Part shown: piece after piece, positions 2,412-22,007 of the stretch | Layout: every line of letters starts with the position of its first letter | Position numbering within the stretch: the stretch's first letter is position 1 | Source: Planctomycetota bacterium | Lineage (GTDB): Bacteria > Planctomycetota > SZUA-567 > H5-PLA8 | DNA length: 64,000 nt | NCBI GenBank assembly: GCA_027493525.1 | Contig: JAOSKN010000003.1 | Span: 1,178,001 to 1,242,000, forward strand | Direction: 5' to 3' | Notes under the pieces: model-generated | Databases searched by the model: none | What the model was told of the DNA's origin: nothing | The model's input: the letters and a program-made list of their open reading frames with translations, nothing else | Program-made: the position numbers and the translations under genes

Positions 2412-2581
2412 CTCAGTACCGCGCCGCGGAAGTAACTGGCCCAATGCGCCGGGCATTTTGTCCCGGATCGAGGCGCGCCGAGGGAGCATATCGGGACGAA
2501 GATCTGAGACCGAGACGCAACGAAGAGCCGGGGCAAAAGGCCCCAGCATTGGGTCAGGAACTTCCGCGGCGCGGTACTCAG
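2412..2581. repeat. 160-bp MITE-like inverted-repeat element, copy 1, with CTCAG target duplication
   Basis: The element is 2417-2576, flanked by CTCAG at 2412-2416 and 2577-2581. The ends TACCGCGCCGCGGAAGT and ACTTCCGCGGCGCGGTA are exact inverted repeats, and the arms continue inward to about 50 bp (CTGGCCCAATGC against GCATTGGGTCAG). A second 160-bp copy lies at 20965-21124 with its own CTAAG duplication. This copy sits exactly at the 3' end of the dioxygenase gene, whose TGA stop lies in the duplicated CTGAG. It encodes no transposase, so it would move in trans or be a fossil. Confidence 0.85.
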
Positions 2582-3414
2582 GGCTTCGGCCAGAGCATCG
2601 GGAACTGCGGGCCGCGCCACGACTCTCCAGGTTGCGGGTACTCCGCGCAGCGCTTCATCCACGTTTCGTTGGGGTGCCCGCGCGGATGCAGGCGATACGT
2701 GCAGGCGCTCGAGATCGCGTGCGAGACCAGGCCCTTGCGCCAGCGCGGGCTGTGGTTCATGCCGCTCCCGTGCAGGGTCTTGCCGTGATGAAAGCTCACC
2801 TCGCCGGCCTTCAGCAGCGCGGGGACCTCCCGCAGCCCCAGTTCCTCCGGCAGATCCGGCTTCTCCTCGTTATTCCCGCTGATGTGCCTGGGCAATTCGA
2901 AGAGGCCGAGCCGGTGGCTGCCGGCCATGAAAACCATCGGCCCCTGGTCGGCCGTCACGTCGTCGAGCGCGATCCAGCAGGTGACCGTCTCGCACTCGGC
3001 GACGACCTGCCAGTAGGCCCAGTCCTGGTGCCAGGTGACGACGTGCCCGCCGCCGGGCGGCTTGTAGGCGATCTGGTCGTGCCAGAGCCGGATACCCGGC
3101 GCGCCGAGCAACTGCGCGCAGATCCGCCCCAGCCGTTCGCTCGTGACGCAGGCCTCGATCGTGCGGTCGGCTTTCCACGCGTTGTCGAACTTGCGCACCG
3201 CCAGAGGGTGGCTCGCCTGCCGCCAGTAACTGCCGTCCGGCGGGGAGCCGGTCTCGTGCCGCCCGTCGATGACGCCCTCGCAGGCCGCGCGCAGGACCTC
3301 GAGTTCCGCGTCGTCGAAGAGCTTGCCGTGGACATGGAAGCCATCCTTCTTCCAGGCGGCGAGTTCTGCGGGGCTCAGTTCGGTCGAGGCGAGCGTCTCG
3401 GCGGCGGCGGGCAT
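2578..3414 (-). CDS. Phytanoyl-CoA dioxygenase (PhyH)-family Fe(II)/2-oxoglutarate oxygenase
   Basis: This 278-residue protein is the usual length for bacterial PhyH proteins. The iron-binding triad is visible: 'TWHQDWAYW' supplies H and D of HxD, and 'EVSFHHGKTLHGSG' supplies the distal His. 'NHSPRWRKG' supplies the Arg expected to bind 2-oxoglutarate. There is no signal peptide, so it is cytoplasmic. Family members hydroxylate a wide range of small molecules, so the substrate cannot be stated. It is divergent from the AraC gene at 3540, the probable regulator. The stop codon lies inside the target duplication of the 160-bp palindromic element, so the C-terminus is probably unchanged by that insertion. 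Confidence 0.9.
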   Translation of the reverse strand: MPAAAETLASTELSPAELAAWKKDGFHVHGKLFDDAELEVLRAACEGVIDGRHETGSPPDGSYWRQASHPLAVRKFDNAWKADRTIEACVTSERLGRICAQLLGAPGIRLWHDQIAYKPPGGGHVVTWHQDWAYWQVVAECETVTCWIALDDVTADQGPMVFMAGSHRLGLFELPRHISGNNEEKPDLPEELGLREVPALLKAGEVSFHHGKTLHGSGMNHSPRWRKGLVSHAISSACTYRLHPRGHPNETWMKRCAEYPQPGESWRGPQFPMLWPKP

Positions 3415-18531: not shown

Positions 18532-21195
18532 CTACGGCTGGGTCGCCCGTTGACGCTCCTTAACAAGCCATGCTTCGAGTGCGGCATGGACCTCCGGAGT
18601 TTGTACCACCACCAGTTTGCCCATGCTCAAGTGGAGCTGCGCGCCGGTCTCGATCATCCAAAACTCCGGGGCAACCTCCTTCTTGACGCGCGCCAGCAGT
18701 TCGTCGCTGAGGATTCGCAGGCCGTCCAAGTCGTACACGCGCACTTTCAGGGGCAGGCCATCGCAGCTCGACTTCAGCGCGACCCAGACGGCCTCGTCGC
18801 CAAGCACGTAATCCAAGGCCAGGGGCTTGAGCGCCTCGCGGAGCACCTCGCCGCCGGGCCGCTCCCGCGCCGCCAGCGCGATCCGGCGATCGTGCAGGTT
18901 CGCGCCGGCGCCGGGATCCAGCACGATGGGCGCGCCCAGGACTTTGCCGTACTCCTCGAAGGCTTGCGCGAGCGGCGCTTCGGCGACGTCAGGCGAGACC
19001 GGCAGGGCCAGCTTCTTGCGCAGCGCCTCGCGATCGAGGCAGGCCGGCGCCGCCGCGGCCTCGGGTCCGTCGCTCACCTCGTGGCTGCGGCCGGCGGCGG
19101 GGCGGCGCAGGGCCTCGAGCAGCCGGCCCAGCCGCGCGTGCCCTTCGGCCTCGGCCATCACGATCAGGTTGCCGTCGTGCTCCTGAAGCGACGTGGCAGG
19201 GTCCGCGAAGTCGCCATTCAATGGGCCTTCCACGATCCAGGTGGCGAGCATATAAACGTTCTTCAGATCGCGCGTGTAATGAATGCCCACCTCGAGGCCG
19301 GCGTGCGCGTCGCCGCGCTTGGTGAGGCAGACGCCCCCGTCGCGCAAGTCCACGGCCAATTGGGATATCCGCGCCAGCAGGTTCAGGACGCTCGCGGCCC
19401 GCAGGTTCTCCGCGCGCAGCGTGACCGCCAGTTGGCCGACGCCTTCGGTATGCCGGCGCGGATCGAGCCCGACGACGAGTCCGGTCTGCTCCGCCACCTC
19501 GTCCAGCGCCTCGCCGAGCGGCGTCTCCCTGAAATCCACGTGGATGCGCTTCTCGTCCAGCTTCGCGCGCAGTTCGTCCCGCCAGGCCCGGTCCGCGCCG
19601 CTGCCTATCCAGGGCGTCGGAACGCGCTTCGGATCGAGCGGGCGTTCCGGGCGCTTCCCCTCCGGCTCCACGGCGCGGACCCGCTTTTGCCAGGCTTCCA
19701 ACTCCCCCAGCAGGCGAACAATCCCCGCGTGGACCTCCGCCGACTGCATGACAACGAGCTTCCCTCCACGTTCCTGGATCGTCGTGCCTTGGTTGGGATC
19801 CCACGAATCGGGCCGCACCCGGTTGCGGATCAGGTCGGTGATCGAGGCCGTCGTCAGCGGCATGCCCGGGCCTTTCGTCAGGCGCTCCACCGAGTAGATG
19901 TGAAGCTCGATCGCCCAGGCGCAGACGTTCACCTGGTTGCTGATGAAGACCGCCTCGTCGATCAGGCTGTAATCCAGGTCGGCGCAGCGCAGGACCCACT
20001 CCAGCGCCGTGACCAGCGGCAACTCCTTCACGCGCAGGCTGATGATCGGTATCCCCCCTTCCAGAACGCCTGGATCTATCAGCAGCGGCGCGTCGGTGTG
20101 CCGGCGCAGCAAGGCGATGCACTCCGTAAGCGGGCGATTCTCGAACTCGAAACTGACTTTCGGTTCGGCGAGCTGCCGCTTTAAGCGCGACATCCAGGCC
20201 GGCGGTTCCTCTCGCAGGATCACGACCTGCTCGGCCGCCTGCTTCCGCCAGCATCCAAGGAAGCGCTCCACCTCCTCGTGGGACTGGGCCGGGCCGCGAA
20301 TCGCCAGCTTGCCCTCATGGGTCGCGACGGAAGCGGTGGGGTCGGCCGCCAGCAGCCGCTCCTCGAAAAGCTGGGCGACATCCGCCAGCGGCAGGCCCAG
20401 GTTCCCGGCCTCGTATAAGCGCGTCTCGTAGTGCCGAAGCTGGTAAGCCTGCTTCGTCAGCGCGATGCGCCGGGGCTCGATGCTCTGGACCAGTTGAGCG
20501 CATCGGCACAACCAGTTCAGCGCGTGCTCCCCGCTCATGGACTTGGCTTCCAAGTCGATGGGGATCTCGCGCGCGTCCTCGGATTCGGGCCCCAGCGCCA
20601 GCGGCAGGCCGACCTGGCGGGCGAGGTCCGCCAAGGCCTCTTCGAGGGGCGTCTCGCGGTAGTTCAGGGTGACCGGCTTCTCCAGCTTGGCGCGATAGTC
20701 GAGCAGGGCGAAGCGCACCGCGATGCGTTCGAGCCGCAGGGCGACCTCCTGGTCCTGCGTCGCGCGCCGCGCCTCCTCGAGCTGCGGCAGGACCCGAAGG
20801 CCCTGCGCCAGCAACTCCGCATGCGCCTTTTCGCGGGTCTCGTACCGGTCGCTGCCCAAGTCCTCGATCCGTTGCCGCACCTGTGCCGGGTCGAGGGGCG
20901 TCGGCGCTTCCCCTGAGTGCGCCGCGGCGGCCAGCGCCGTTAGGCCCAGGACACAGGCGCTAAGTACCGTGCCGTTGAAGTAACTGGCCCAATGCGCCGG
21001 GCATTTTGCCCCGGATCGAGGCGCGCCGAGGGAGCATATCGGGACGAAGATCTGTGACTGAGGCGCAACGAAGAGCCGGGGCCAAAGGCCCAAGCAGTGG
21101 GTCAGGAACTTCTGCGGCGCGGTACTAAGGAAGCATCGATTCGAGGGCACGGGCGCGCCTCCGCTCGCGGCGGCAAGGGGTCGTTCGATTCTCAT
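18532..21195 (-). CDS. Secreted STN/secretin-like repeat protein carrying an in-frame palindromic-element insertion
   Basis: I place the start at ATG 21195 (MRIERPLAAA), giving 887 residues; the ORF upstream is antisense to the creatininase gene. After the element comes 'LSACVLGLTALAAAAHSG', a signal peptide core, then a HEAT-like module ('IEDLGSDRYETREKAHAELL'). Three or four STN-like modules follow ('TLNYRETPLEEALADLARQV', 'VSFEFENRPLTECIALLRRH', 'HVDFRETPLGEALDEVAEQT'), each followed by a 'GKLVVMQSAEVHAGIVRLL' secretin N-domain-like strand. There is no C-terminal secretin barrel, so it is a periplasmic adaptor of unknown partner. Residues 24-78 are encoded by the 160-bp element plus its 5-bp duplication (55 codons, in frame). 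Confidence 0.75.
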   Translation of the reverse strand: MRIERPLAAASGGAPVPSNRCFLSTAPQKFLTHCLGLWPRLFVAPQSQIFVPICSLGAPRSGAKCPAHWASYFNGTVLSACVLGLTALAAAAHSGEAPTPLDPAQVRQRIEDLGSDRYETREKAHAELLAQGLRVLPQLEEARRATQDQEVALRLERIAVRFALLDYRAKLEKPVTLNYRETPLEEALADLARQVGLPLALGPESEDAREIPIDLEAKSMSGEHALNWLCRCAQLVQSIEPRRIALTKQAYQLRHYETRLYEAGNLGLPLADVAQLFEERLLAADPTASVATHEGKLAIRGPAQSHEEVERFLGCWRKQAAEQVVILREEPPAWMSRLKRQLAEPKVSFEFENRPLTECIALLRRHTDAPLLIDPGVLEGGIPIISLRVKELPLVTALEWVLRCADLDYSLIDEAVFISNQVNVCAWAIELHIYSVERLTKGPGMPLTTASITDLIRNRVRPDSWDPNQGTTIQERGGKLVVMQSAEVHAGIVRLLGELEAWQKRVRAVEPEGKRPERPLDPKRVPTPWIGSGADRAWRDELRAKLDEKRIHVDFRETPLGEALDEVAEQTGLVVGLDPRRHTEGVGQLAVTLRAENLRAASVLNLLARISQLAVDLRDGGVCLTKRGDAHAGLEVGIHYTRDLKNVYMLATWIVEGPLNGDFADPATSLQEHDGNLIVMAEAEGHARLGRLLEALRRPAAGRSHEVSDGPEAAAAPACLDREALRKKLALPVSPDVAEAPLAQAFEEYGKVLGAPIVLDPGAGANLHDRRIALAARERPGGEVLREALKPLALDYVLGDEAVWVALKSSCDGLPLKVRVYDLDGLRILSDELLARVKKEVAPEFWMIETGAQLHLSMGKLVVVQTPEVHAALEAWLVKERQRATQP
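20960..21129. repeat. 160-bp MITE-like element, copy 2, inserted in frame in a coding sequence, CTAAG target duplication
   Basis: The element is 20965-21124 with CTAAG at 20960-20964 and 21125-21129. Length is identical to copy 1, with about 90% identity by eye. Removing the element and one CTAAG joins 'VPSNRCFLS' directly to 'ACVLGLTALA' in the same frame, giving a normal signal peptide. The inserted 165 bp is an open frame on the minus strand, so the host gene stays open. Confidence 0.88.
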
Positions 21196-21254: not shown

Positions 21255-22007
21255 TCACGCACCCTTCAGCTTCGCCGCAACCTTCGCCGCGAGCGCGTCG
21301 CAGAGCGCGCTCAGCGCGGCCTCGCCGGCCTCCGCCGTCGCCGTCCCGCGCGGGTCCTCCCCGACCTGGCTGAAGAGCGCATGGCCTGGATCGAGTTGCA
21401 GCTTGGGCACGTCTTCCGGCCGCGGCCGCTTGTGCGGGTTCGGCCAGTCTGCGCTCGTGCGGCCTTCGCGGAGCGCCGCCATCTCGACGTGCTCCGGCAG
21501 CAGCGCCAGCCCGTAGCTCGTCTCCCAGCGCGCCGCGTGGTCCCCGGAGACCGGCACGTCCAGCGCGCGCCCCAGCGCCATCTCGTTGCCGGCCAGGATC
21601 AGCACGTCCGGATGCCGGTGCTCCACGACCGGCACGACCGAATTCAGCAGCGGCTGCCACGGATAATGCCCGGCGACCACCACCAGCGCCTTGAAGCCCT
21701 GCAGCGCCGCGCGCTCCAGCGTCTCGCGCAGGATCTTCTTCGCCGCCTCCGCGTCCTGATAGAAGGTCCACGCGAACTCGCCGTGCCCGCCCCCGGCGCC
21801 CCACCACATCACCGGCAAGAGCAACCCGCCGGTCCGCTCGGCCATCCGGATGCAGAGCCGCTCCGCCTTCAACCCGTCGAAGCCCACCGGCAAATGCCAG
21901 CCGTGGTGCTCCAGCAGCCCCAGCGGCCAGTACAGCACCGGCGCCTCGTCCACCGCCGCGCGAAGCTGGTCGGGCCGGAGGGTCTCGTAGCGCTGCCAGG
22001 CAGACAT
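21255..22007 (-). CDS. Creatininase-family metal-dependent amidohydrolase
   Basis: The start is ATG 22007 (MSAWQRYETL), because GGAG lies 6 nt upstream and the longer ORF uses a TTG. It has 250 residues, the usual family length. Motifs: 'WPLGLLEHHGWHLPVGFDG', matching the E-x-HG-x-HLP...D metal-binding loop; 'GAGGGHGEFAWTF'; and 'KALVVVAGHYPWQPLLNSV', in the place of the usual NGHGGN. Family members hydrolyse creatinine, formamides or lactams, often in cofactor or sugar metabolism. The N-to-A/Y changes in the last motif suggest an altered substrate. Confidence 0.85.
   Translation of the reverse strand: MSAWQRYETLRPDQLRAAVDEAPVLYWPLGLLEHHGWHLPVGFDGLKAERLCIRMAERTGGLLLPVMWWGAGGGHGEFAWTFYQDAEAAKKILRETLERAALQGFKALVVVAGHYPWQPLLNSVVPVVEHRHPDVLILAGNEMALGRALDVPVSGDHAARWETSYGLALLPEHVEMAALREGRTSADWPNPHKRPRPEDVPKLQLDPGHALFSQVGEDPRGTATAEAGEAALSALCDALAAKVAAKLKGA

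Follow-up and report, generated by a model that had tools for sequence, protein, structure and literature searches.

A MITE in a secreted-protein gene of a Planctomycetota bacterium carries a conserved hairpin core found between different terminal repeats

The 64,000-nucleotide stretch of the Planctomycetota bacterium contig JAOSKN010000003.1 analyzed here (positions 1,178,001 to 1,242,000; "the window") contains a 160-bp imperfect palindrome between two copies of CTAAG (20960-21129), close to the start of a gene for a predicted secreted STN-domain protein. This raises the question of what kind of element it is and how it came to lie in an open reading frame (ORF). A first-pass annotation had described an inverted-repeat element with a target duplication that adds 165 bp in frame to the gene, and the coordinates, the palindrome and the frame were all borne out: element and one target copy together give 55 open codons on the minus, coding strand, without a stop. 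The same strand is predicted to fold with -82 kcal/mol (z -6.8). We conclude, with a probability of roughly 0.8, that the element is a non-autonomous miniature inverted-repeat transposable element (MITE) of the IS630 type that carries a conserved hairpin core.

A search of the window's genome (G000; 7.46 Mb, 88% complete, from the same family as a Planctomycetota metagenome-assembled genome (MAG) from Lac Pavin) revealed copies throughout, 30 of full length and about 10 partial, the best of them 80-94% identical, and the palindrome is therefore not due to chance. The terminal inverted repeats (TIRs) of this type are GTACCGCGCCGCGGAAGT and the duplicated target is CTNAG, as had been proposed. 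Of the 30 full-length copies, 26 have CTNAG at both ends, and in 23 of these 26 the two flanks agree in N, as a direct repeat, so that the duplication takes in TNA at the least. It may comprise just these 3 bp within a conserved C..G or the whole CTNAG, two options that are inseparable because the outer C and G hardly vary. The unequal N in the flanks of three full copies (L007, L021 and L024) is perhaps due to recombination between copies. The net insertion among the full copies is +165 in 19 cases, +166, which shifts the frame, in nine, and +167 and +156 in one case each. Shorter relatives of the element also exist, the smallest being a bare 25-bp TIR-TIR palindrome; such palindromes (NTNAGTACCGCGCCGCGGTACTNAG), ends without anything between them, were seen at about 2063-2087 of L041 and about 2026-2050 of L055.

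The link to IS630 came from a TIR-pattern scan of the genome collection, in which matches were found in two contigs only, both from one Pavin MAG (G003). One of them, L102, carries at 1412-2661 a full IS630-family element (about 1.25 kb) that has the TIR GTACAGCGCCGCAGAAGT, CTTAG on both sides and a matching transposase (NF033545, E 4e-52; DDE_3, E 1e-24). Its TIR is 85% identical to that of the window type over 20 nt. The other contig holds a 125-bp MITE, and no core was seen in either element. Classic IS630 duplicates TA only, and the TNA-containing target duplicated by the window type differs from TA by one base. In every feature tested, the mobile part corresponds to an IS630-type MITE. 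The coding sequence of the L102 transposase (1443-2630) apparently occupies two frames, with the break near TTTTCCCCC, which may be due to programmed frameshifting or a mutation.

Elements of two other genomes (G005 and G004) matched the middle of the window element alone and had different ends. Covariance models were built from 13 (R1) and then 30 sequences (R2) and applied to 392 sampled Planctomycetota genomes, many of them fragmented; few candidates were scored per genome, so that copy numbers are lower bounds, and E-values are rough. The core, a conserved hairpin of about 100 nt with near-invariant purine-rich internal loops, was found in 12 of the 392 genomes with R1 and in 60 with R2, and the window's genome alone gave 100 R2 matches. 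In an 800-kb specificity check, all four matches of at least 41 bits were flanked by TIR-like ends belonging to other types; the next best scored 17 bits. A search of Rfam with the core yielded nothing above the gathering score, plasmid and phage collections contained no match, and viral contigs gave no match for one pattern and two chance-like matches in coding DNA for the other.

In the window's genome, the core lies between TIRs of at least nine families, and in most of these the two ends match. Random TIR identity is about 0.35, with 95% at most 0.50. Within this genome, types t3 and t4 have a TIR identity of 0.35 and a core identity of 0.82, while for t5 and t7 the values are 0.90 and 0.53. 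Between genomes, G000 and G106 share 0.80 of the TIR and 0.64 of the core, G000 and G005e 0.35 and 0.75, and G000 and G003 0.85 of the TIR with the core absent from the G003 element. Judged from these similarities, which disagree in both directions, the inheritance of the TIR is independent of that of the core. As a module separate from the TIRs, the core occurs with nine or more TIR families in a single genome as well as throughout the phylum. A single hybrid, L308 (1598-1716; core decayed), has a left TIR of type 10 and a right TIR of type 6. In L284 (C2:1281095-1281374) and L286 (C1:917532-917812) of G000, a type 6 and a type 5 element stand back to back with one CTAG in common, as if one element had targeted the other's end. 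Composites with two inverted cores behind CAGCCCGTTGAAA ends (L291, L297, L298, L300, L184 and L196) were found in two genomes of the genus. These back-to-back and two-core elements suggest plausible routes to TIR exchange.

Covariation in the core reached 0.567 in the cross-phylum set, compared with 0.167 in shuffled and 0.05-0.10 in slid alignments, and 0.327 compared with 0.121 in the control for own-genome elements of other TIR types. Two boxes, C(G/A)AGG(C/A)G and GC(A/G)ACG(A/C)AG, are highly conserved, and the substitutions in them would agree with sheared G-A pairs in tandem. The idea of a kink-turn in the internal loops was dropped, as the register does not fit. In helix 2, G-U outnumbers A-C by 25:2 and 38:10 in two sets, part of which may be methodological, given that G-U gets a higher score than A-C in the covariance model. 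In all 26 elements examined from other genomes, the fold of the core strand is better than that of its complement. The G-U excess and the better fold of the core strand point to selection on one folded single strand.

The positions of the copies were determined with a codon-usage gene caller built for the analysis and checked on Pfam-supported genes, and 941 classified CTNAG sites in an 800-kb sample of the window's genome served as control. A gene's stop codon is the commonest single position of window-type copies: 13 of the 30 full-length copies have one inside the target, 12 are intergenic and five lie in genes, these five at most 13 codons from the start or about 4 codons from the stop. 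Of the control sites, 636 fall within genes and 55 coincide with stops (p 1e-8 for the comparison at stops). When non-coding positions only were considered, 13/25 copies were on stops versus 55/305 CTNAG sites (p 3e-4). Ten of the genes with a copy on their stop match Pfam families. In a separate set of short or solo TIR sites, 9 of 23 are exactly on stops, and in other genomes an ORF of at least 100 codons is closed by 20/72 element ends versus 31/230 control sites. Copies can land on stops without changing the protein because CTNAG holds a stop (TAA, TGA or TAG) on one strand or both, and the duplication rebuilds it. Most of the bias is probably due to selection against other positions, and target preference may also contribute.

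How, then, does the insertion in the window fit? The likely original start of the host gene is the GTG at 21150, with a GGAGG at 21162; from this GTG the product reads VPSNRCFLS|ACVLGLTALAAAAHSG, the bar marking the insertion point. Without the element, VPSNRCFLSACVLGLTALAAAAHSG would be the start of the protein and by hydropathy looks like a normal signal peptide, as the first-pass annotation had supposed, and the element breaks the start of the hydrophobic stretch. With the element, the frame stays open through VPSNRCFLS, 55 residues and ACVLGLTALAAAA, and the predicted element-encoded part includes the peptide SQIFVPICSLGAPR. Translation from this GTG would lengthen the protein by 55 residues ahead of the main hydrophobic segment. 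The Pfam STN match of the host protein is sub-threshold (19.4 bits versus a cut-off of 28.4).

The proposed likeness to Rickettsia palindromic elements (RPEs), which can sit in frame in protein genes, would make this an element specialized for such insertion, with a tolerated 55-residue peptide. Copies are indeed not always intergenic or out of frame: in a second, independent case, L008 (C2:840495), a porin-like Alginate_exp gene reads VKSVLS, 55 residues and ALALAACLGLG, in the same open frame as the window insertion, and L005 and L015 add LSTAPQK and a stop at C termini. The expectation of insertions within genes held for these two signal-peptide cases, but not for the family, as just five of the 30 copies overlap genes, each of them near a gene end and never in the interior, and the nine copies with net +166 would shift the frame. 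In-frame lengthening of proteins is a small minority outcome among full-length copies. Unlike RPEs, the element avoids gene interiors, often has a frame-shifting length and has a clear target duplication, and we regard an RPE-like specialization as very unlikely.

A different mobility would be that of repetitive extragenic palindromes (REPs) moved by a RAYT, a Y1 tyrosine transposase. GTAG REPs are extragenic palindromes that have been reported to supply TAG stop codons to neighboring ORFs (PMC3733652), and the palindromic, mainly extragenic nature of our element and its asymmetric conserved mismatches would agree with this. The direct target duplications with matching N, which REPs moved by RAYTs do not have, and the TIRs in common with an IS630 element speak for a DDE-type relative in place of a RAYT, and the element is 160 bp long compared with 20-40 bp for GTAG REPs. 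Moreover, core presence shows no association with Y1_Tnp genes across genomes, and G005, with at least 14 copies, has no Y1_Tnp match, so that a RAYT-moved palindrome seems highly improbable. The core might also be a functionless inheritance of an ordinary old MITE lineage in which TIRs drift fast with their transposases. Targets of TA or TNA in the different types, and a loose GAAGT/AAAGT inner motif in several TIRs, would be expected from such drift, but the near-invariant loop boxes, the compensatory changes, the discordance of TIR and core in both directions and the hybrid L308 are not, and we consider this origin unlikely.

Several results weigh against an IS630-type MITE with a selected core and a preference for stops. 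No autonomous element with a window-type TIR was found in the window's genome (88% complete); an IS630 relative, L107, is without window-type ends, and a search of the DDE_Tnp_1 genes of four genomes for an autonomous partner gave no matching ends. An autonomous partner in the same genome is usual for IS630-type MITEs, not obligatory. IS630 DDE_3 genes are present in 23 of the 60 core-bearing genomes versus 139 of 392 overall (p 0.66), which leaves the mover of most TIR families unproven. The alignments A2-A5 were fitted to the covariance model, and in helices 4 and 5 of the own-genome set G-U and A-C stand at 19:22, without a G-U excess. CTAG-type elements are on stops in 14/51 cases versus 18/112 non-coding sites, an excess that is not significant (p 0.14). 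Finally, element and stop-codon gene have the same orientation in five cases and opposite orientations in seven; this lack of bias speaks against a cis-acting role in the host mRNA.

For the IS630-type MITE with a hairpin core, we propose that IS630-type transposases would move the element in trans via its TIRs. Cores may swap TIRs by recombination between core arms or, alternatively, by nested or adjacent insertions at common CTAG targets. The core would be kept since one strand acts as a folded single strand, either as RNA or as DNA extruded in replication, and the window insertion would have fallen in frame within the signal peptide by happenstance. As a tentative extension, with somewhat less than even confidence, the core may form a class of its own among mobile structured nucleic-acid modules: a hairpin with fixed purine-rich loops, selected as folded RNA or single-stranded DNA, that spreads in Planctomycetota with the borrowed ends of any IS630-type transposon present and prefers stop codons.

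MITEs are normally defined by their ends, and the middle gets little attention. Here it is the middle that is conserved, between ends that are exchanged, and this suggests a passenger that has a selected function of its own. IS630-type MITEs such as RUP of Streptococcus pneumoniae and Nezha of cyanobacteria are likewise short and palindromic, lack a transposase gene and have IS630-type TIRs and a TA-containing target; in contrast to these, our element duplicates the N of CTNAG and its structured core spans different TIR families. QMITE1 of Coxiella combines variable ends with a conserved core (PMC5896051), but within one species, whereas here distinct complete TIR pairs surround a covarying core throughout the phylum. 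Searches of the open-access literature for the core, for one TIR, for the CTNAG target and for MITEs of planctomycetes found no description of the family or of a structured core common to different TIR families, and the hairpin family is apparently undescribed. Landing on stop codons would be a simple way to multiply in a gene-dense genome and leave genes unharmed. For annotation, the family makes spurious ORFs and possibly real in-frame extensions.

Table 1. Positions of the element, its parts and associated genes in the window
Feature	Position	Strand	Remarks
160-bp MITE	20965..21124	+ (core reads on +)	One of 30 full-length genomic copies
Left target copy CTAAG	20960..20964	none	Flank of MITE
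Right target copy CTAAG	21125..21129	none	Flank of MITE
Left TIR GTACCGTGCCGTTGAAGTAACTGGCC	20964..20989	+	TIR family is that of the IS630 element in L102
Right TIR	21100..21125	-	Paired with left TIR
Conserved structured core	20988..21103	+	110 bits with covariance model R2
Host gene, STN-domain secreted protein	18532..21150	-	GTG start 21148-21150; open through element; Pfam STN sub-threshold
GGAGG, Shine-Dalgarno-like, for GTG start	21158..21162	-	Precedes GTG 21150 by 7 nt
Creatininase-family gene	21255..22007	-	Upstream of host gene
Second element copy of the window	2412..2581	+	CTCAG target copies; core 2440-2555
PhyH-family gene	2578..3414	-	TGA stop within right target copy of second element

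About ten near-identical copies of a Y1 (IS200/IS605-type) transposase were also observed on contigs C1, C2 and C3 of the window's genome.
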